A stretch of 64,000 bases of DNA from Axinella damicornis (lineage: Eukaryota > Porifera > Demospongiae > Axinellida > Axinellidae): positions 186,001 through 250,000 of the forward strand of contig OZ007513.1 of the NCBI GenBank assembly GCA_963931865.1, written 5' to 3'. Both the position numbers and the translations under genes were made by a program. The notes under the pieces were generated by a model. The model worked only from the letters and a program-made list of their open reading frames with translations, made no database searches and was not told where the DNA came from. Every line of letters starts with the position of its first letter. Position 1 is the stretch's first letter. Below, piece by piece: positions 50,713-64,000 of the stretch.

Positions 50713-52122
50713 CTAGCTAGTTGAGGCGATGTTTGCCGCACGATCCAAAGCATCGAGGATCTGGCTGCACTGGTTCTTCACGCTGTACTTCCCCACAGCA
50801 AGCTTCTCACAAGCAGGCCCCTTTGAAGTCTTCCAATCCTCCTCCAAGGCCTTGATGATACCAGCAGAGAGACCTGAAGTAAATTCCTCCTTCTCTTCCA
50901 TGGACGATACCTCAGGCACAAGCAAGCCTACATCTGGGGACACAAAGTCCCTTGGCCCACCAGAGTCTGCACCAATCACAGGTGTCCTGCACGCCAAGCA
51001 CTCGATGAACACCAACCCAAACGCCTCGTTCCACGAAGGGAAAACCCCTAAATCGGACACATTGTATATCTTGGCCAATTCCGGATGCAGCTTGTGGCCA
51101 AGAAAGTAGACGTGTGCTAGTCCCTTGCCCCTGGCCAAGTCTTGGTACTTCTTCTCCGTCTCCAACGAGCCAGTACCGCAGATGATTGTGGCAACCTTCT
51201 TTCCTTGCCTATTCCCCCAAGCTTCATACTCCACAGCAGCCGTCAACAGACAGTCCAATCGTTTGGATTCAGCAAACTTACCCACAAACGTGACAACCTT
51301 GTTGAAGTCGCCCGGGACATTTACTGATGCCTCTGAACTGCCCTCATACGGGACAGTGGAGAACGAGGACAGAACCTCCTTCCTGTTCAACGTTGAATCG
51401 TACTTGAAGATGTTCTGGTTGATCCCATTGGGTGAACGTACAATTTGATTGGTTGGGTAATCGGGGAAGACCTTGTGGAAGGTGGCCACCTGCTGCTCTG
51501 AAATGGCAAACACTACTTGGAATGGACTGTTTGGTGCAAACACCGACTCCTTTCGGACGAGTGGGAAGAAGCGGAGCGGAAATTCTTCTGGGTTATTGCC
51601 ACCACACTCGTGCTCGAACATCTTCAAAGCAGTGCCATGCACAAATACACCTGCTGCAACGTCAGGCTTGCCTGCAGCCTTGCGCCTTGCTAGAACGTCC
51701 TTCAATACGATCGGGTTCAAGAAGCAGTGGTGGGCCAGAGCATGGGTGAAGGTTTCCCCGGTGCTAGCCTCACATCTCTCCATAAAGTCATAGACAGTGT
51801 CGGTCAAGCGCTTCCGGTAAGCAAGGAAGTCCTCTTCAGACATGGTGTGCCACCTGTAGCTGCTGACGGGCGAGACAGACTCGCAGATAGGAATATCGTG
51901 GTCCAGCTTGAAGATTTCGTGATCAGAGCCCTCTGAGTGCTGCGTCCTGGACGGCCAAATTGACCAGGAGCTGGTGTTCTCCATTGTGTTGAAGGTGACG
52001 TGGAGCGCCTCGTGCAGAATGCCACTGCCCGGCGCGAAACTGTTCTGCGTCTGCCAGTTGTTGGTGCCCAGCTGAAACATCATCCTCTTGCGATCGTTCT
52101 TGGACTCATCGGGCTGAGACAT
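50713..52122 (-). CDS. GT4-family (GT-B fold) glycosyltransferase, intronless
   Basis: 469 aa in one exon. The C-terminal half has the classic group 1 glycosyltransferase signature: FVGKFAESKRLDCLLTA (donor-domain start), IICGTGSL, VYFLGHKLHPELAKIYNVSD, then the E-x7-E motif as EAFGLVFIE, followed by CRTPVIGADSGGPRDFV and GLLVPE. A PNGINQNIF loop marks the hinge to the N-terminal domain. These enzymes transfer a sugar from a nucleotide-sugar donor with retention of configuration. Substrate unknown. No signal peptide or TM is apparent, so it is probably cytosolic. Being intronless among intron-rich neighbours suggests retroposition or horizontal transfer, not proven. Divergent from the Death-domain gene with only 106 bp between start codons. 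Confidence 0.85.
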   Translation of the reverse strand: MSQPDESKNDRKRMMFQLGTNNWQTQNSFAPGSGILHEALHVTFNTMENTSSWSIWPSRTQHSEGSDHEIFKLDHDIPICESVSPVSSYRWHTMSEEDFLAYRKRLTDTVYDFMERCEASTGETFTHALAHHCFLNPIVLKDVLARRKAAGKPDVAAGVFVHGTALKMFEHECGGNNPEEFPLRFFPLVRKESVFAPNSPFQVVFAISEQQVATFHKVFPDYPTNQIVRSPNGINQNIFKYDSTLNRKEVLSSFSTVPYEGSSEASVNVPGDFNKVVTFVGKFAESKRLDCLLTAAVEYEAWGNRQGKKVATIICGTGSLETEKKYQDLARGKGLAHVYFLGHKLHPELAKIYNVSDLGVFPSWNEAFGLVFIECLACRTPVIGADSGGPRDFVSPDVGLLVPEVSSMEEKEEFTSGLSAGIIKALEEDWKTSKGPACEKLAVGKYSVKNQCSQILDALDRAANIASTS

Positions 52123-52228
52123 TTTGGCAGTTTTGTTCAGTTAGCTCATCCCAAGGCACCACCCCTGTTCGCATGCATTATATTGAGTGGGTGGGGCTCT
52201 AATTGCAGGGCGTATCTCTATTTGCAAA
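52123..52228. promoter_or_regulatory. Probable bidirectional promoter
   Basis: Only 106 bp separate the start codons of the glycosyltransferase (-) and the Death-domain gene (+). It includes a GTGGGTGGGGCTC GC-type box near 52188-52200. The shared promoter is inferred from spacing. Confidence 0.45.
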
Positions 52229-54092
52229 ATGGCTGAACCTCTCGGTGAGTCCTGGAGTGTATTTTGTCTACCGTGTATTAACGAGTGATTAGCTAGCCAT
52301 GCTGTACTCCAACTTGCAGGGAAGCTAGACGTACGGAATCTCTGTGATGAACTGACTGAAGTGGTTGACTGGCACCAGCTGGGGATCCAACTCGGCATAC
52401 CGCCTCATTTGCTTGCAACCATTGAGGCGAACCATCAGCAGAATGAGCGACGGAAAACAGAAACTTTGGATCTGTGGTTGCGACGCACACCCAGTGCCTC
52501 GTGGGGGGACGTGGTGGGAGCTCTTCGCCGGATGGAGTTGATCAGAGTTGCTGAAAACATTGCTGCAAGTAAGATAGAGGAGCATATACTCCCAGTGGCT
52601 GCTTCTATAGTTCACAGTATACTAGGGTTGTTTTATAGCTAGCTACAAGTTAGCCCACGGTTGCAAACACGGCATGAATCAATATTTGCATCATCATAAT
52701 TTTGTTGTGTCAATTCACATGACAAAGAGTGTTGTTGAAGTAGCTAGCCTCATTCCCTCACCCCAGCGTCATGACAAAGAGTGTCACAGTTGTTGAAGTA
52801 GCTAGCCTCGTTCCCTCACCCCAGCGTTGGGTTGAGAAGGACTGGGAACGAGGCTAGAAGTAGCAATTTATTGTTGAAATCATCCAGCAGGAGTATTTGA
52901 AGGTGGTGCCAGTACAGGCCAGTGTAGTAATGAGTCATTCTAGTGATTGGTATAAGGTTGCATGACAATAGCACAACTGTGCCATAGTTAAGACCTTTTG
53001 CAGGCAGTCTGCCGTAGTAAGACATTTTGCAACTGGTTAAAACAATAATAGTGAAGGTGAAGAACAGATCTATTGATAATACATTTTACTGAGTGCTTCT
53101 TTACTCTGCACAGAAATGGTTCGGGTTGGTCCGATTCCTCCTCACGTGGATGACTCTCTATTAGGTTAGTCTGACAGAATAATAGTTGCATGGATGCTAC
53201 GGAAGACCACAAGAGTGAACTACTACTAGTATCCTACCATTGTACATGTATACCCACTCCTCTACTGCTCTTCCTCGTCCACTGTAGCTATGTACAATGG
53301 AGCAGTGCAGTGGAAAGTCTAATCTGATTGATGAATATACTTGCACAATGTCATCTCTGTCACACTGACAATACTACCACAACACACTTCATGCATTATG
53401 CATCACACAGCTGTGCCTCTACCCTAGAGCAGCTTTGTATGTTCAGTCCTGTTAGCAGTGTTAGGTATATTCACATGCATCCAGTAATTTTAAAAAACCT
53501 CCCGATCACTTTGCACTGCCATCTCAGCACTGCTATAAACAGTGCATCCTCATGCATTATGGCAGGCTGCCTTAACTAGTATTGTAACCATACACTCATA
53601 CATTCATAAATGCAAACACTGTCTGAGATCTCCGCTATACACTGCAAGATTAACTAAAGTGTAGAAACTAGAAAGAACCGTTCACGTAGTAACACAGCAA
53701 AGTATGCTACTCAGTATAATGAGTGCCTAGGGAAGAGGAATTCATGATCATCCTATAATGTTGTCTCTTATGTTGCCACTGCAGACACTAATCCAGCTCT
53801 ACCAGAGTTACTCAATTTCCAAGGGAGGAAGAGAAAGATCAACATTGCCCAGGAAATTGGCATTCATTATACCACATTTGGCATCCTCCTCCTCAATGAC
53901 AGAAATGGAGCACGAGTTGATGCTATTGCCCTCAAACGCATGAACAATGCTCAGCCGATCAACACGGAGGTTCTCCAGGAGTGGCTCGCTGGGAGCGGGA
54001 GGACACCCGTGAGCTGGAGAACACTGATTGGGGTGCTGCGTGATCTCGGACTTAATGTGCTTGCTGATGACATTGAAGCCACATTTCATTAG
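52229..54092 (+). CDS. Tandem Death-domain protein (two DDs)
   Basis: Four exons, 52229-52244, 52320-52568, 53114-53164 and 53785-54092, all phase 1 junctions, 207 aa. DD1 (residues about 6-88) shows the DD helix pattern: LCDELTEVVDWHQLGIQLGI, then PPHLLATIEANH, then ETLDLWLRR with SASWGDVVGALRRM. A 17-residue linker exon (ending HVDDSLLG) leads to DD2, which begins PALPELLNF and ends with LQEWLAGSG, TPVSWRTLIGVLRDLGLNVLADDI. Both keep the W-x-x-L signature near helix 5. DDs form homotypic oligomers in apoptosis and innate immune signalling. It is probably a cytosolic adaptor. The linker exon has the same 51-nt length and VDDS-LG ending as those in the gene at 56553, so the two genes share an ancestor. 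Confidence 0.85.
52741..52856. mobile_element. Foldback MITE and partial copy in Death-domain gene intron
   Basis: The full element 52803-52856 (TAGCCTCGTTCCC...GGGAACGAGGCTA) is flanked by GAAGTAGC on both sides. A 58-bp upstream segment repeats its left arm and flank (52741-52775), so the left part has been tandemly duplicated after insertion. Confidence 0.8.
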
Positions 54093-54943: not shown

Positions 54944-56104
54944 TCAGGCGGTGCTACTGTAATCTTGTTTGTGCGTGTCCCAGACAAGCGGTACATCTTC
55001 TGAATCCTCATGAGAGGGTTCAAAGAAAGTTTCGCTGGGCTGCCGGTACAACTCACTGTTGTGATTTACGGTTGTGTTCTCCAGAGTAGCTTGGAGCTGC
55101 TTCTTCCGCCGGCCATGTATGCATTTATCGGTCACTAAAGAGAGGGGCAGGAAGATGGCCGTCAGTAGAGCAACAGGAATAAAGACACCTCCAAGTGGAG
55201 TGATTACGGCATAAACCACCCAGACACCAAAGCTTTGCTTGTTGAATGGCAAGTAAGCATGGGTTATCACTTCAACAACACCGAACACAAATATGACAGC
55301 CAGGAAGAAAAGCGAGAATATCGAGTCTGTGATCACCTTTTCCATCAGGTTCTGAGAGTCACTGTAATTCTTGATTGTACAGCCAAGCAAGCACAGCGAT
55401 GTAAAAAAGAGCACAAATGTTAGAAAAACTACCAGTCCAAATGGTATATCCCACAGCACTATTTGTTCGACTAATCCTGCTGTGTGGAAGGTGCAGTTCT
55501 TCTGGATACTGCCAATCCAACACCACGGACCGGTAGCACCATACGAGTTGGTGGCGAAGGGTACCCAGTCAAAGAGGAGGGGGAGTCCGAATACAAGGAC
55601 CAAAAAGACCACTTCTAGTTTGTTGATCTTGCAGCCACAGCATGTGAACGTGCAATTGATTCTCTTGTGACAGCTGTCGACACGTTCAGGCTTCCAAGGG
55701 GTTGCATCCCACACCTTGAAGAAGAGGACCATGCTTATCCCCAGTGTGAACAAGAGCTGAACAGATCCACAGTACTGGATCAGAAAACCAAACGTTTTAC
55801 AGACGTCATGAGGGAACAAATCAGGCTGAGAATGCATCGCAAGGACCAGTTGGTACGGCACCGTGGCTGCAGTGAGCCAAACAGTGAGGCGCTTCACAAC
55901 AGTTCCACAGAATTTCAGCTTCTCAAGTTTCTTTTTGCAAAGTACTTTCTTAAGTACTGCTAGTGTTAGAAGCACCACAAGCACTACAAGCAAAATAGCA
56001 CCACAAATGGCTGCAGTAATGCGTCTTACCAGAGCAACGTGTGTGAACTGCTCGTAAGTAATAAATCCAGAGCAATTTTCGAACGAGAATGATTCGGCCT
56101 CCAT
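54944..56104 (-). CDS. Seven-TM receptor
   Basis: 386 aa from MEAESFSFENCSGF; a Met 12 residues upstream is also in frame, but the chosen start matches the 41941 paralogue. This copy sits away from the main cluster, beyond MFAP1 and the Death-domain gene. It is closest to the receptors at 41941 and 37013 (same VWDATPWKPERVDSCHKRI segment, same GLPLLFDWVPF). Differences: a longer basic loop after TM1 (KKVLCKKKLEKLKFC), loop 2 GPWCWIGSIQKNC, and a tail in which the motif is eroded to RQPSETFFEPSHEDSED. It is divergent from the 2A/Death-domain gene. Confidence 0.87.
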   Translation of the reverse strand: MEAESFSFENCSGFITYEQFTHVALVRRITAAICGAILLVVLVVLLTLAVLKKVLCKKKLEKLKFCGTVVKRLTVWLTAATVPYQLVLAMHSQPDLFPHDVCKTFGFLIQYCGSVQLLFTLGISMVLFFKVWDATPWKPERVDSCHKRINCTFTCCGCKINKLEVVFLVLVFGLPLLFDWVPFATNSYGATGPWCWIGSIQKNCTFHTAGLVEQIVLWDIPFGLVVFLTFVLFFTSLCLLGCTIKNYSDSQNLMEKVITDSIFSLFFLAVIFVFGVVEVITHAYLPFNKQSFGVWVVYAVITPLGGVFIPVALLTAIFLPLSLVTDKCIHGRRKKQLQATLENTTVNHNSELYRQPSETFFEPSHEDSEDVPLVWDTHKQDYSSTA

Positions 56105-56552
56105 GATCTCACCAGCTGACCAACAGTCTAGGTAGCTCACTTATCCCAGATTAAACTCGCACTTGAGTCCTGCAGCCTCGCCTCCTCCCTCCTCCTGTTT
56201 TTCTCCTGAACGGATAGTCTCGGTCCCACACACAACCAACCCCAGCGCGGATCGCTTCCAGTCAAACAAACGAGGGATGTTTGATTTCATGTCTCCTCAC
56301 TGTACCGCAGTCATACGTCCCACTATTATTAGACTAGCTTCTCTCTGCAACATCTCCGACAGGAAACTCTTCGCAAGCAGCTCCCACCGCAATGCTATTA
56401 TGGGCGCCGCGCGGGCGGGCCTTGGGGCGGGCCGTGGCAGAGGCCGGCCATGGATAACGTCTATGGGGAAATCCCACTAATCCCACCCATTTTTCTTGCA
56501 GCTATGTGTACGTACGTACAGTGTTGATCGTCGAAAGCCTACAGAAAGTGAA
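56105..56552. promoter_or_regulatory. Divergent 5' region with GC-rich core
   Basis: About 450 bp between the starts of the receptor (-) and the 2A/Death-domain gene (+). A CpG- and GC-box-rich core (GGCGGGCC, GGGGCGGGCC) lies at 56403-56435, followed by an AG acceptor-like TTTTTCTTGCAG ending 56500. So a 5' UTR intron is possible and would place the start of exon 1 at about 56501. Confidence 0.4.
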
Positions 56553-59500
56553 ATGGGGATCGATCTCGCTACGTGGCGAGCTCGAATCGGGCTCAACTAC
56601 TACCGCCATGGCTACCGCCCGCTCCCTGTCCAGTGGAGGGCGGCCAGATGGGGGGTGGGGGAGGTCGTGAACGGCACTCCTCTAGTGCTGCAAGGCTGCA
56701 TGTCGTTCGTCTCTCTGTCTCTGATACTGGAATATGCGTTCCGCAGGTGGGGAGGCTGTCCAAAGGGGAGGAGTGGGTGTGGCAAGGTGCGCCGTCCCAA
56801 GTTGGGGGGTGGTTCTGTCCCGAGCAATGAGGCCAGAGGGATGGCGGGAGTGCGCAGTGGGGTGTGCTTACTGCTCGGAGTGTGTGCGGTGGTGCTGTCT
56901 CTACTTCTGATGGCAGGAGACGTTGAGAGAAACCCTGGGCCCACAGACAAGGAAGGTACCCAAGTTTACTGCAATGGCTGCTAAGTTTTGTACACCCATA
57001 GACTTCTATTGCAAATTCCAGTGATTGTTTGGTGAATTACTGCCCAATGAATACTGTACTAATATAACGTTCTTATTCTCTGTGCAGGATCTGATCAGGT
57101 GGATAAGGCACTCCCTAGTGTGGATGATTCTCCATTAGGTTAGTTGAATAGATTGAAGCAGGAGCGCATGAGCTGCTGAAGGAGGCGAAGGAGCGTTGAA
57201 CTCAGCATGCCGGCCGTAGCGGAAGTAGTAATACCTCATACGTCTCAAACTTTACCTTATACGGCAAGGGGCCATTCTGTAAAAGTAGGAAAGACAAATT
57301 GGCGTTTGTGCGGTACCGCAAAGGTCTTCCATACTACAGTAAGGTATGACTGTTAGGCGTGAGGGATCACAACATATGTCTATACTAGTTTGACGCTCCT
57401 TCGGCGGCTCATGCGCTCTTGATTGAAGATAAAGTGTCTTCATAACTTTCTTTCAACATTATTTTCCAACAGGAGAAAAAGATCTCTTTGACGTACTGGC
57501 AGAGATGATGCTGGTTGTTGGCAGATGGAAGGCCATTGGCAGAGGGTTCCGAATTGACTCTAGACGTCTGGATCAGATTCAAACTGATAACCACGATGAT
57601 TATGAAGAGTGTTTGTCGGGCGTGCTCACATGCTGGCTAAGGAAGAACTATGACGTAGAGCTGTTTGGCGAGCCAACGTGGAGAACGGTGGTGAAAGTGG
57701 TGGCACATTCTGCAGCTGGGGACAACTGTGCACTTGCCCTGAGCATTGCAGGAAGACACTCAGGTATGTAGCAGACTCCTGTACTGATCATTATGGCTTT
57801 GAAACATGACACACATCTGACCTGAGTTTGAAGTTCAAGGTGACTTGTCTAGCGCTGGAGACAAAAATCGGAACAAATCCAAAACTGCTGTACGATAGAC
57901 GTAAGTTACTTTTACTTTACTTATAGCCGCCAAAGAGGGGTGCATTTGCACCCCCTTAATCCGCCACTGACAGTCGCCAAGATTGCAGTTAGAAGACATG
58001 AATTACTCTCACCTTATAGTCTAGAGCCTCAATAGGCTGAGACTCAACCCATAGTACACTGAGGGGTCTACAGGATTTAGAGCCCCGCGGACACTGTATA
58101 GACACCAGAAGTACAATGGTGTCTATAGGTTTCCGAGGGGCCCATAGCCCCTGAGGGTTTCATCGTTTATACTATACAGTTGGCAGCCAATCAAATCACT
58201 GTCTGTATTAGCAGCTGCAGTTAGTAACTGTCCAGTCAGAAAGCAGAGATGAGTGTGTTTATAGCAGCTGGTTTCACCGTCTGCCAGTCTAGATGCTAGA
58301 CCCTCCCTCTCCCCCCCTGATAATGAAGGAAGGGGGGAAGGGAGGGTCTAGTGGCTAGACTGTGAACTGTCCGCTACCTGACAACTCTACTTACTTGTGC
58401 CTCACGTTTTGGACAGTGATTCCGAAGCGGAACCAGACTCTGAGATTGCACCACTTATGACACTTATGGAGGCGTTTTGTGAGACGTAGACGAGCCAAGT
58501 CACGTGTTTGGTTCCAGCACACAATGTGTTCGCACCCTATACCAGAGAACTCCACGTGGTCTATTGCAGGGCACTGTACAACTACAGGTGTAATAAGTGA
58601 ATTCATTTGACCAATCAGATTGTACCATTGAAGTTAGTAGTTAGTAAACAACCACTCATCTCTTATCTACAGTGGTTACGAGTACTGCTTCACAAACGTC
58701 CACCAGAAGTCAAGTCTCGTGTGTTAGCAGCACAGTACTGGCTGGTGTCAGTCCCAGGCCCGTCTCCTCCACTTCCACTCAGAGTGAGGGTCTCAGTAGC
58801 CATAGTTTGGGTGTGGGTGTGGCAGGTGCACTTTTTTTAGGGCAACTGCCTGAACTTCACCCCCTTAGCTAGCTTCATGCCGTAGTTGTACTTCAATGTA
58901 ATGCTGTACAACTGTGATTTTCCTGCCAGTGTGTGCTTGGTACTTGTAGCATACACCAAAAATTGTCTAGCAACAGATGCACATTCAATTCAGCACCCTG
59001 CCGGACCAATACCACTTCGTAAATCTTACGAACAGAGCAATTTCAAAACTCGTAAGTCTTAGTAACTAAGACTTAGACTTACGAGTTTTGAAATGGCTCT
59101 GTTGCTGAGTGTGTACTTGCAAGGGGTTGTAGATGGGCAGGTTGCGCGTGCGAGCAAGCCGGGTCTGACTTCGCCCAGGTTCGTGATCGTGTTTGGGTTT
59201 AGTCTCGCAGGCCAAACCCTTTTTCCTGTTTGGGGTGCGGCCGTATGCGTAACTTCCTAGCTTTACAATTAGTGTGGAGCTCACTCATACTCAGCCCAAT
59301 AAGCAAAGAGATATACCATACCCGGATGTTGTGGAGATCAGCTGCGCAGGTCACATGTATACTGTGTATGGTCATCATACGATCTGGTAACACATATTTT
59401 GACGTGAAACTTTGAAGTCAAATCAGTGCTCAAATCAAGACCTACTTTGTCGGTACCATGTTGTGACAGAGACCACAGTGAAAGCCCCAGGGAGGCCTCT

Positions 59501-62500
59501 GACAAGAGACGGAAATGATGAAAGTCAAAATTGTGTTGCTGGAGTCGAAGCATCCCCCTTTCATCACACCTACTGTTGCTACTCAGCTATCTCTTTGCAC
59601 TCACTCTCGGTAACAGTACACACCTTACACCGAACTGAAGAGACAGCATTTGACGTGAAAAACTTAGTGGCCACTGCACACAAGCTGCAGTAGCTATGCA
59701 ACTAGGCTCGCATACATCGTTTTGTATCGTGCACTCATGAATTCATAGCAAATTCCGGTCATTGTTAGGTGAATAACTTTGAAATGAATACCCTACAATG
59801 CTATACACTAATACTACCACTATGCATCTTATTCTCTGTGCAGGATCAGATCAGGTGGATAAGGCACTCCCTAGTGTGGATGATTCTCCATTAGGTTAGT
59901 TGGAGAGATAAAAGTGTTTTTGTTGTAAGTTATTTCAACATTGTTTTCCTACAGGAGAAAAAGATCTCTTCGACGTACTGGCAGAGTTGATGTCGGTTGT
60001 TGGCAGATGGAAGGCCATTGGTAGAGGGTTCCGAATTGACTCTGAACGTCTGGATCAGATTCAAACTGATAACCACGGTGATTGTGAAGAGTGTTTGGAA
60101 GATGTGGTCAAATGCTGGCTGAGGAGAAACTACGATGTTGAGCTGTTTGGTGTGCCAACGTGGCGAGCGGTGGTGAAAGTGGTGGCACGTCCAGTCGCTG
60201 GGAACAACTATCTACTTGCCCTGAGCATTGCAGGAAGACACTCAGGTAACAGATTTAGTGCAGTGGAAGATTCTTTGTCAACACTTACACTTACTGACAA
60301 AGAATCTCTTTGCTGCATTGAAATTTGTGGGTGTGGTTAAGTTGGGTTAGGCATGTCATACACAGCAGTGTGTGTCATACTTAATTGCACATGCGCAGTT
60401 GATGGATTTCTGACAGACTAAGTCGAAAGTGTATCCCCCAAAATGTCAACAGTACAGTGCGGAGCGTTCGAACCGAGCCGACTGGATATGATGAACTGAT
60501 CCAGGACCTGCTGAAACGACTATGGGCCCCGCCCCCTATGTCCACCTCGCATCCACCTGACGTCACTCATGTGATGAATGATACCAGGCCTTCCCCGCTG
60601 TTCCACATCCGTGTATTATTATCAATGCAAACCAAAGAACAGAAAATGGGGTAAGGCCTGGGAACAAGGCTACTGTAGTGATTCATACACACTATTATTC
60701 AAACATTCGCATGCAAATACAGCACACACACAGTAGTACTGCCAGAAATGCTCAACTGATATATACCATGCACACATGCAGTTACAGTAGAGAGCAGTCC
60801 AGATTCAGCAAAAGGTATGTAGATCGCACTCGATCTGACTCCAAGCGATCAACCGATGTTGAACCGGGCACCGACTCACGTGTACTGTTGTGTGAAATCC
60901 TGTCCCACATGGAAATCGCATCACTGTCTTCTTGTGTGTGACCAGTGCCTCAGTGTCATTGCTGACTCGTTGGCTGTGCTCGCCTGACACGTTGTCGCTT
61001 GTAGTTACTCCTTCGGCACCTGTAGGCATGTAGCTGCTCTCACAGGCAGCTGCTCAGCTCTTGTTGCGCCATCTCTGGTCGCGACCATGTTACCCTACAG
61101 AGTCCAATTTCTCGCCGTCCAGTCCTCAGCATCGTTAGCATGTGTATTGCTTCTCATAATTTCAAACAAATATTTGAACACCTCCTTGCTCGGGGTAGAT
61201 ATTCCATAGAATTCAAACACCAGGAAATTAATTATGTTCAAATTATTAGTCATTACAGTACTCCACTGTGCAGTATTGAGGCACCTGTGCATGTGCCATG
61301 ATGTGGACCCACTCACCATCATCTCCCACCCAGCATCTTCCCCTTTAATAGATGGGATGCTTTGGCACCGACTAGTTTCTGTTTACGACCACTCCTTTTC
61401 CACGAGACAAGTCCTATTCTACTTTGACCCCCATTGTACATATCAGTGGTGTACCATACTTGCATGTAACTGCGCATGCGTAGTTCATGATTTCTGAGAG
61501 ACTTGTTGAAAGTGTGTCCAAACAATTTGGAAGAGGGCATGTATATACTCAGGCTCAATCCATATTATGACATGCAGTTACTCATCTCTTAATATCTACA
61601 GTGGTTACTGGTACTTCTCCGCAAACCTCCAAGCAAATTCCCATCACAAGTCAAGAACACTCTTATGCTAGCAGCACAGTATCAGACGACGTGTTCACTT
61701 CTGAAGGTGCTAGTGTCAGTCCCAGGCCCAGCTCTTCCACTCAGAGTGAGGGATCTCAGAAGCCACCATTTGGGTGTGGGTGTGGCAAGTGCACATTCAG
61801 TAGTTATATTGAGAGTGGATGCCCAAACCCAATCCCCTCAGCTAGCTCGTTCCCATGCCTTGATTTCAGCCGACTTACCCATGAGCAACAGCAAGAACTC
61901 AGAGGCAGGCTGCGTGTGGAGTCAGAGGATATTGTGATGAAGTTTCAGCACCTTTTTTCCACTGTCTACGAGTCACTGTGTGCACGAAGCATTCCTGTGG
62001 ACAAGCTAGTCACTCACCTCTTGTCGTTGCGTTCATTTGACCCTGTCTATGAGGGTTCTGAGAAACCAGTGTTTCAAACCTTCCTTAAAGAGCTTCAGTC
62101 TGCGGGAAGTATTGAGAAGGTGCTGTGGGTTATTAGAGACTACTTTACCTTTTTCAACTATCACGTTATTGAACACATTGTCAGTAGACTTGGTACAGAC
62201 CAGGACAAAGCTGAGCTTCGTAACTACAAGGAAGAATTTGACCGCTACTCAAAGCGTAGAGTTTATGAATGTCTCCCAGTCTTTGGACCTGTGAGCAAAG
62301 CTAATCATGTTGAGTTAGTTTTGATGTTAGATTCAGTGTACGAGCAATTCACTGTGGAGGCGGTCAAGGATTTTCGTCACAGGCTTAATGGAATCCTCCG
62401 TATATCACAAGGTGTTCTTCGTCTCTGTCGAGTGGAGGGTGAGTGTTTCCACCATACTTGTATGTACATATGCACATGAACACTCACGGTATACAATAGC

Positions 62501-64000
62501 CTCAATCCATCTAAATACTTAATGGTAGCTAAAGGTTGTCTTCGTAATTCACCTCCCCATTGTGATATTAGGGGGCATGGGAAAGGGGACCTAGGGTCCG
62601 GATTGAATAGGTGAACTTTGACCTTTTACTCAGCTGAAGCTTTACAAGTCAACTTGTAAAGGTCGAAGTGACTCTGAGACCAATTTCAGCCTGTTTTTTC
62701 TTCATTTGGCATCTGTACACAATGTTTTCATGAACCAAACTAGGTAATTCAATGCGGGCATAACATGATAGGGTGGTTAAGAATGCACAATCATATGTCT
62801 GGAAAATTTCTTCTTTCAAAGTTAATGTTCTTCGTGCAGATGATGGTGAGAATAAAGAAATGTACATGATTTTTAATTTCATGAAAAGATACTTCACTTG
62901 TGAAATGGCGACTACTAGAGGACTCAGCATGTAGCTACTTCATCGATAGCTCACCAATTCTTTCCGATTCAGATTTTGCATGTTGGCATTTGATTGCGGA
63001 AATTTGTACCTTGCTAAAATTTCCCACTCTACGGTAGACTATGTTCGCAAATTTCTTTCTTAGGTTTACGTTCTGTCAAAGTCCTTCATGCAGCTGCAGA
63101 TGATGGTGAGCCAACAGCAGTTGTTACTCACACACCTACCAGTCCTGAGCAGCAACTAACCAAGACGGAATGTAAGCCAAGCAAATGAATGTTTTTCTAC
63201 ATTTCATGTTGATTATTTGGCTTGGTCTGGTAACGGTGCTTAGATCTGTTAATACAGAAGTGGCAACCATACTCCTGGAACAGCAACTATTAGAACAAAC
63301 TCATTTCAGAATGCATACTCCAATTACGTCCAAGAGTGTTATGTACTGTTTGCGCTTTTTTCCCTGTGGCTGAGCACTCACTGCGACTGTCATTGGCAGC
63401 ATATATAGCTCTAGTGACAATCTGACTTAACAACGGTAGATAATTTTCCTGAATCATTGATGCTTATTGCTGTTTTGATTTCACATTTTTGTGATTGTTT
63501 CTGCCCAATCATTAAATAACTATCTCTACAGCTGCAACCCATGAGGCTTCACTCTCCTCCCAGCTTGTGACCTTCAGTGGTGCTGAAGTTGTTGCAGAAA
63601 CTAATTTTGTCATTACTAAGGCTGCAAAATCTTACTCATGGAGAGGTTATGGGTTCAAACTACATGTCCCTGATGATGCCCTGCCAGAGAATGTGTCTGA
63701 GTATCAAGTGAATGTCAAAGCTACGCTCTCTGGACAGTTCGAACTTCCTAAGGGCTACAAGCTTGTCAGTGCAGTCTACTGGGTGAAGGCACCTGGAAAT
63801 TTCAAGAAGTCGGTTAGAGTAGAAATTCAGCACTGTGCAAATACAGCGGACCCCAGTAACTTGACATTTGTAGTTGCCAAGTGCACACAGAAAGACCTGC
63901 CCTACAAGTTCACTCCAATGAAGGCTGGAGTCTTTCAGCCAAGCAGCAGTTATGGAGTGATATCACTAACTAGATTTTCTGGGCCTGCAATTGCTGCAAA
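56553..64000 (+). CDS. 2A leader, two Death domains, Cys-rich/helical module and ZU5 protein (3' end beyond window)
   Basis: Nine exons: 56553-56955, 57088-57138, 57473-57763, 58673-58825, 59844-59894, 59955-60245, 61602-62438, 63064-63171 and 63532-end; every junction is phase 1. Exon 1 ends with a hydrophobic stretch (CLLLGVCAVVLSLLLMA, residues about 105-121) and then GDVERNPGP, a full match to the 2A consensus D-x-E-x-N-P-G-P; the break would fall between Gly129 and Pro130. A 17-residue VDDSPLG linker and DD1 (about 152-248), a Ser/Thr-rich exon, a second linker and DD2 (317-413) follow. Exon 7 (414-692) has a CGCGKC cluster, a PIPSASSFP stretch and a long helical region. Exon 9 is ZU5 (SWRGYGFKLHVPDDALP, LVSAVYWV, VEIQHCA, VAKCTQKDLPY). 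ZU5 plus DD recalls PIDD/UNC5-type signalling. The upstream Met at 56496 is possible; the Met at 56841 would leave just the leader. Confidence 0.82.
56841..56943 (+). other. Signal-like hydrophobic segment plus 2A-like ribosome-skipping motif
   Basis: From an internal Met (MAGVRSG) the frame reads as a classic signal peptide (basic n-region, about 17 aliphatic residues) running straight into GDVERNPGP at 56916-56942. 2A sequences make the ribosome release the upstream product and resume at Pro. 2A motifs merged with signal peptides have been described at N-termini of immune-type proteins in sea urchin and, as I recall, in sponge. Confidence 0.85.
57088..58825 (+). repeat. Death-domain block 1 (linker exon, DD exon, Ser/Thr exon)
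   Basis: Duplicated as a unit with 59844-62438. Exon lengths match exactly (51 and 291 nt), and the linker exons differ at one or two bases. The Ser/Thr exon (58673) starts like its partner at 61602 but is truncated by a cryptic donor GCAG/GTGCAC. Reading through instead gives a stop at LPELHPLS about 40 nt further on. Intron 58826-59843 contains no recognised exon. Confidence 0.8.
58284..58366. repeat. Foldback in intron (TAGACCCTCCC arms)
   Basis: Arms CTAGACCCTCCCTCTCCCCC and its complement around a short loop, in the intron between DD1 and the Ser/Thr exon. Confidence 0.7.
59032..59102. ncRNA. 71-nt near-perfect hairpin (miRNA-precursor-like)
   Basis: Arms of 27 nt, ACAGAGCAATTTCAAAACTC plus GTAAGTC and its complement, differ by one base, with a 17-nt loop, in an intron of the 2A/Death-domain gene. 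The size and stem fit a miRNA precursor, but it could also be a small foldback transposon. No expression evidence. Confidence 0.35.
60246..61601. other. Long intron of the 2A/Death-domain gene
   Basis: 1.36 kb without recognisable exon. Holds a small hairpin at 60270-60307 (GATTCTTTGTCA / TGACAAAGAATC) and a half TAGCCTTG foldback near 60652-60672. Confidence 0.55.

Follow-up and report, generated by a model that had tools for sequence, protein, structure and literature searches.

The locus considered here, in the sponge Axinella damicornis, raises the question of whether the first exon of a death-domain gene encodes a leader that ribosomes detach by 2A (StopGo) skipping, and where in the cell the downstream protein would go when skipping fails. 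The DNA analysed (hereafter the window) is a stretch of 64 kb, positions 186001-250000 of contig C9, in a genome of 226 Mb and 120 contigs; all features of the gene are on its forward strand. Exon 1 (56553..56955, residues 1-134), whose start and donor are read directly, is an open reading frame (ORF) of 134 residues in which a conserved N-terminal part is followed by a hydrophobic segment, the octapeptide DVERNPGP, the residues TDKE and then a GT donor. The ATG at 56553, the octapeptide at 56919-56942, the donor after 56955 and a second exon at 57088-57138 all lie where the initial annotation had placed them. Skipping is predicted between 56939 and 56940, giving a predicted leader of 129 residues that ends GDVERNPG and leaves Pro at the start of the next product. 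The octapeptide fits the StopGo/2A core (D/G/C/N)(V/I)ExNPGP, and by eye the LLLMAG upstream of it fits the leucine-rich class ending in (A/S/C)G and resembles motifs 2 and 6 described for viral sequences, motif 6, of the L-rich hexapeptide class ending in AG before D, being reported as active in vitro (Li et al. 2026, PMC12846837). The Arg that precedes NPGP lies outside the residues favoured in the viral sets and counts against activity of the motif. NPGP is found a single time across the six frames of the window. Chance occurrence was considered and rejected: a degenerate DNA pattern encoding D[VI]ExNPGP matches the genome exactly 209 times, compared with once for the reversed pattern.

The hydrophobic segment (residues 103-122, 56859..56918) resembles a signal anchor, with a best 19-residue sum of -2.91 on an approximate membrane-insertion scale, and is flanked by charges of +10/-1 over the preceding 40 residues and +4/-12 over the following 40. 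A first hydrophobic stretch, at residues 44-62, was tried as an early SRP signal and set aside as weak, its insertion sum on the same scale being +4.57. The combination of a signal-like segment with 2A, as initially annotated, is thus present, but the segment is not N-terminal: it starts at residue 103, behind an N-terminal part (residues 1-100, 56553..56852) that begins MGIDLATWRARIG, and would stand near a protein start only if the internal Met97 (56841..56843) were used as a second one, yielding a short signal plus 2A.

The leader is not peculiar to one exotic gene, a possibility that was discarded when 23 matches were found at 20 places of the same genome, the window included. Seven of these rows are partial or broken pieces, and the remaining ones are full-length and 56-93% identical. 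Homologues were found in 518 proteins at E 0.001 (ENA and JGI assemblies, some possibly of the same species), and 119 of the 120 listed among them were aligned, the window's own ORF (P0018) being omitted; because these are the best scorers, the aligned set leans to intact copies. Met1 is retained in 117/119 of them, the exact DVERNPGP in 106 and D[VI]ExNPGP in 112, with two further homologues carrying His for Asn in the octapeptide, a variant reported as active in viral contexts; the motif is damaged in the other five, which counts against the main reading. The exon end NPGPxxKEG is kept in 107/119. Mean column entropy reaches its minimum for the leader in the octapeptide (0.21 bits), compared with 0.56-1.09 bits elsewhere: residues 1-42 have 0.56, the two hydrophobic regions 0.70 and 0.71, and the linker 1.09, gaps reducing some of its columns to only 30 letters. 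Selection was estimated as a ratio of mean dN to mean dS over 13 copies from this genome (78 non-independent pairs), and dN/dS is 0.35 for the whole leader, 0.32 for residues 1-100, 0.26 for residues 1-42 and 0.45 for the linker. Residues 101-130, at 0.40, do not fall below residues 1-42, and dS is lowest there (0.153); the 2A end of the leader does not stand out by dN/dS, contrary to what the main reading would favour. Conservation of Met1 and dN/dS together indicate that translation begins at Met1 and that the leader is under selection throughout. No spliced transcript was recognised among the leader homologues, those tails that were read running on into apparent intron, which also weighs against the reading given here. 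Exon 1 is probably one copy of a selected, multicopy family of 2A leader exons that front death-domain genes.

The same data bear on two other readings of the leader. According to the first, the leader is a functional protein in its own right, 2A would let one mRNA yield as much of a membrane protein as of a cytosolic death-domain protein, and the unskipped product would be noise. Retention of Met1, the standing of residues 1-42 as the best-conserved stretch besides the octapeptide, with a low dN/dS, and a length far above what a targeting signal needs are all in its favour; however, a Pfam scan of 120 leader-length ORFs gave no family beyond single stray matches, and C4-type leaders of the same genome would have maybe ~21 residues if started at a Met 14 residues before the motif. 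We hold this reading to be possible but on balance unlikely. The second supposes two starts, Met1 for the long leader and Met97 for a short signal plus 2A of the sea urchin kind, with start choice and skipping together setting the fate of the protein. Position 97 is indeed Met in 98/119 homologues, but in only 5/13 copies of this genome, the other 8/13 having Thr, Ile or Arg, and residues 1-100 appear from dN/dS to be translated and selected, so that we consider a functional second start improbable, though the second Met still allows for one.

Downstream of the leader, the gene model continues with a 51-nt linker exon (exon 2, 57088..57138, phase 1, AG/GT) and a first death domain (exon 3, 57473..57763), followed by what by eye is a decayed copy of exon 4 (58673..58871), with a shifted frame and an early stop relative to the intact copy at 61602, and presumably skipped. 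A duplicate of exon 2 (59844..59894), placed by the splice model, precedes a duplicate of exon 3 (59955..60245) encoding a second death domain 81% identical to the first; exon 4 (61602..62438) encodes a companion domain, here called X, that has 103 matches in this genome and belongs to no Pfam family over its cut-off. A linker (exon 5, 63064..63171, phase 1, AG/GT), present in the model only, and a ZU5 exon (exon 6, 63532..64000), which in the model runs 109 bases past the window, follow. The model as a whole has 12 exons and 1125 open residues, and all its junctions, as predicted, are GT-AG and phase-compatible.

The in-frame splice to Death domains proposed for this locus is compatible with the sequence, since exon 1, exon 2 and the death-domain exons would join as an open chain in phase 1, every junction having AG/GT. 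Taken alone, the death-domain exons of the window remain under the Pfam Death (PF00531) cut-off of 22.6 bits: the first scores 16.1, the second 13.0 and the whole model 26.0. When the window copy was aligned with 42 of 120 listed homologues, picked for near-full cover, 36 of these 43 sequences reached E 0.01 against Pfam Death, and the window copy is not one of those 36. The closest solved structures to the profile are death domains of FADD, at a weak E of 0.016. In one homologue, P0156, exon 2 is joined to exon 3 without an intron, and this sequence could be RNA or an intron-less copy. A search for homologues of the 1125-residue model with its residues 1-470 gave none among 7999 scored candidates, which counts against the model as drawn. 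Relatives support the front half of the gene well, and the pairing of leader and death domains is backed by a conserved family.

The ZU5 half claimed by the initial annotation is a different matter, being splice-compatible but lacking support from relatives. Its Pfam match is 23.7 bits over a cut-off of 21. Proteins of the ZU5-UPA-DD architecture are of the UNC5/PIDD type; in the model ZU5 is over its cut-off, UPA is not listed, and the terminal exon is death-domain-like by eye with no Pfam Death match. NACHT has no match in the model. Past X, three sibling stretches were read: two (L041 and L044) have ankyrin repeats, and the third (L040) shows none by eye over 4.3 kb. The exon X of the siblings continues past RVE, where that of the window ends, no ZU5 match lies near any other leader place, and the closest relatives of the ZU5 exon are on C7. 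Ankyrin repeats in siblings, ZU5 found only away from leaders and a shortened X therefore lead us to treat the ZU5 half as either a fusion or a neighbour. That ZU5 comes from an adjacent gene, the leader gene ending or continuing otherwise past exon X, has close to an even chance, slightly on the lower side; the truncation of X at the junction agrees with this, and so does a comparison of 56-64 kb of the window with the 7 kb that precede the closest ZU5 relative (on C7, partly masked), which showed no DNA similarity, while the phase-compatible GT-AG junctions over 12 exons, the open 1125 residues and the ORF of ZU5 itself, which by eye has no preceding Met, argue against it. A fusion is plausible on the splice model.

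Other ORFs lie upstream in the window. On the reverse strand, 54947-56140 encodes 398 residues with several hydrophobic stretches by eye and no Pfam match at E 0.01; this ORF and the leader gene diverge, their likely starts being ~450 bp apart. Further away are a glycosyl transferase group 1 ORF (50716-52140, reverse strand, Pfam 79.3 bits), another death-domain exon (52289-52639, forward strand, Pfam Death 45.2 bits) and, by eye, a death-domain exon at 53748-54089 with no Pfam match.

At the scale of the genome, two refined searches listed 197 of the 209 motif sites, 173 of the listed motifs lying outside a satellite on C6. With 25 C6 motifs (128-bp satellite, changing frames) and 11 C1 motifs (short-period array) set aside, linkage counts rest on 161 of the 197. 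At 93/161 of these sites a NACHT, X or death-domain match follows on the same strand at a distance of at most 10 kb, and at 17/161 one precedes within that distance; the 93 observed compare with an average of 8.5, and never more than 28, over 200 shifted sets. Within 5 kb, 71 sites have a partner downstream and one upstream; with the first NACHT list alone, the numbers are 72/161 and 9. The partner lists are partial (NACHT, 103 of 103 plus 150 of 152 matches; X, 103; death domain, 71 of 110, the weaker 39 being left out), and 68/161 sites have no tested partner within 10 kb, which counts against the main reading. Seen from the partners, 42 of 162 distinct NACHT places are preceded by a motif at most 10 kb away, and 13 are followed by one at that distance. 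For the leader family itself, 17/20 places have a death-domain exon at most 1.3 kb downstream on the same strand, and 17/20 have X within 9.3 kb downstream. Two regions are especially dense: C4:4.2-5.3 Mb has 46 motifs, 22 of them with NACHT within 10 kb downstream, and C3:19.3-20.45 Mb has 14, of which 13 have X in reach.

Reading of 75 distinct sites, a set that omits L009-L018 of the C1 array and L081, gave a hydrophobic stretch before the motif in 54 (15-residue mean at least 1.6) and a GTRAG donor at most 24 nt after it in 41, where simple arithmetic expects about 3. One C4 gene stretch (L045) combines a leader, MVVGVILLLLVLSGDIEMNPGPVG, with a death-like exon recognised by eye and without a Pfam Death match, X-like sequence, NACHT and LRR; one C3 stretch combines a leader with a death domain under the cut-off (16.9 bits), X and 25 ankyrin matches. 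The C1 array (C1:5419195-5425713, reverse strand, L009-L019) consists of eleven 2A-bearing pieces, mostly ~690 bp apart; those read end like KVKLLIVAGDVETNPGPISG ahead of a GTGAG donor, and the array looks like tandem 2A exons, perhaps alternative ones.

Not all 2A motifs of this genome precede immune-type exons. At L032 and L037, 2A stands ahead of a PHD finger (one just below cut-off) and an endonuclease domain, resembling a non-LTR retrotransposon, an observation that goes against the main reading. Odon et al. in 2013 reportedly described the 2A of APE-type non-LTR retrotransposons, and the 2A of this genome before endonuclease-type ORFs is alike. The satellite on C6 (C6:9399400-9404300, L081) has 36.6 copies of a 128-bp unit, with the 2A motif in 25 exact matches and in changing frames, and by eye its 2A resembles the PHD-finger type of 2A ORF. 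These elements and the satellite with its similar-looking 2A allow the octapeptide of the leader to be seen as a passive relic of retrotransposon 2A, devoid of recoding activity. However, the leader exon has neither endonuclease nor PHD finger among the leader-length ORFs scanned and is followed by immune-type exons, the leader is under purifying selection, and its octapeptide is by entropy the part best kept; a relic is thus decidedly improbable.

The leader and the exons behind it have not diverged in step. In two genes, C3_928 and C3_547, dS relative to the window copy is 0.16-0.17 in the leader, 0.75-1.08 in the death domain and 1.45 in X, whereas in four other genes it is 0.60-0.75 in the death domain, 0.20-0.34 in the leader and 0.21-0.44 in X; the death-domain contrast is partly circular, because the groups were set by death-domain similarity. 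The first pattern suggests copying or conversion of a leader onto an older body, the second death-domain exons that may have been exchanged or change fast. Among ten copies (L001-L008, L035 and L036), continuous DNA similarity begins at most 35 nt upstream of the ATG in 42/45 pairs, and this is so even with 1076 nt at 96.7% identity, and in the near-identical neighbours L007 and L008. Separate short upstream matches occur in 17/45 pairs and in none of the nine pairs with the window copy. As far as comparison of the copies goes, exons of leader-bearing genes appear to move independently. A broader proposal, that several unrelated types of 2A leader are interchangeable front parts which have been copied to death-domain, ankyrin and NACHT-LRR genes of divergent kinds, with the skipping rate setting the cytosolic and secreted shares and the long leader, once released, acting as a membrane partner, is speculative and, in our view, rather unlikely in full.

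How the leader might work follows from its geometry. The ribosome would make the 129-residue leader ahead of the death-domain protein. Once NPG has reached the peptidyl-transferase centre, the last residue of the hydrophobic segment lies 7 residues behind, and the exit tunnel is described as holding 30-40 residues (PMC2978324); the segment would therefore still be inside the tunnel, and skipping would be decided before SRP sees it. In most rounds the Gly-Pro bond would be skipped, the leader freed as a membrane-prone peptide, and the death-domain protein, starting at Pro, would remain cytosolic. In the remaining, less frequent rounds the bond would form and the segment would emerge as a type II signal-anchor with its positive side N-terminal, so that the N-terminus would stay in and the death domains would pass into the ER lumen and the secretory route. 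Slipstream translocation of the downstream protein was considered and rejected, its authors having given that interpretation up in favour of 2A inhibition during translocation (PMC2978324). Altogether, a leader family with predicted skipping and two predicted fates is the explanation we favour and think reasonably probable, splicing, the rate of skipping and membrane fate being conditional parts of it. It is doubtful that the unskipped route would be a regulated switch rather than leakage.

The idea of two fates was demonstrated in 2016 for NLR leaders of the sea urchin Strongylocentrotus purpuratus (Roulston et al. 2016, PMC4981915). These SpNLR2A leaders are reported on 85/241 NLRs and on 14/87 later NCBI entries, and one of them, SpNLR2A6, showed ~80% skipping in vitro, a qualitative estimate; in HeLa cells its wild type was cytosolic and a non-skipping P3A mutant mainly in the Golgi (PMC4981915). 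In both animals 2A and a hydrophobic stretch form one unit close to or at the start of the protein, death/NACHT immune proteins lie downstream, and two fates are predicted. The scale is of the same order, 85/241 NLRs there compared with the 42/162 NACHT places of this genome that a motif precedes at 10 kb or less, and neither the idea nor the scale is new, since the sea urchin work showed both. The sponge leader differs in its 129 residues and internal segment, which is N-terminal only from Met97, compared with ~26 residues and a signal at the N-terminus in SpNLR2A, and in being found also on death-domain/X/ankyrin genes; activity was measured in SpNLR2A and is predicted here.

Viral StopGo/2A shares with the sponge motif the D(V/I)ExNPGP core and an L-rich hexapeptide ending in AG, whereas here the motif is cellular, stands at the end of a first exon and would split off a leader rather than parts of a polyprotein (Li et al. 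2026, PMC12846837). That source describes 2A as rarely used by cells; the main example it names is the NLR leaders of sea urchins, cited as a likely useful form of incomplete skipping (PMC12846837). A death-domain NLR has been described in another sponge, Dysidea avara, as a NACHT-LRR gene with an N-terminal death-like exon, which L045 resembles; the terms '2A-like', 'NPGP' and 'signal peptide' have zero occurrences in the main text of that paper (PMC12909245). Among the best-matching papers of the open PMC set, none described a 2A leader from a sponge or one attached to death-domain/ankyrin genes. As far as that set shows, three features are new: a leader that is both long and conserved, its combination with death-domain, X and ankyrin genes, and its exchange among diverged gene bodies. 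With a second animal genome in which many 2A motifs lie near immune-type exons, the purpose of cellular StopGo becomes directly testable, and this one genome offers leaders that differ in length and context, whose skipping rates, membrane targeting and partner domains can be set side by side.
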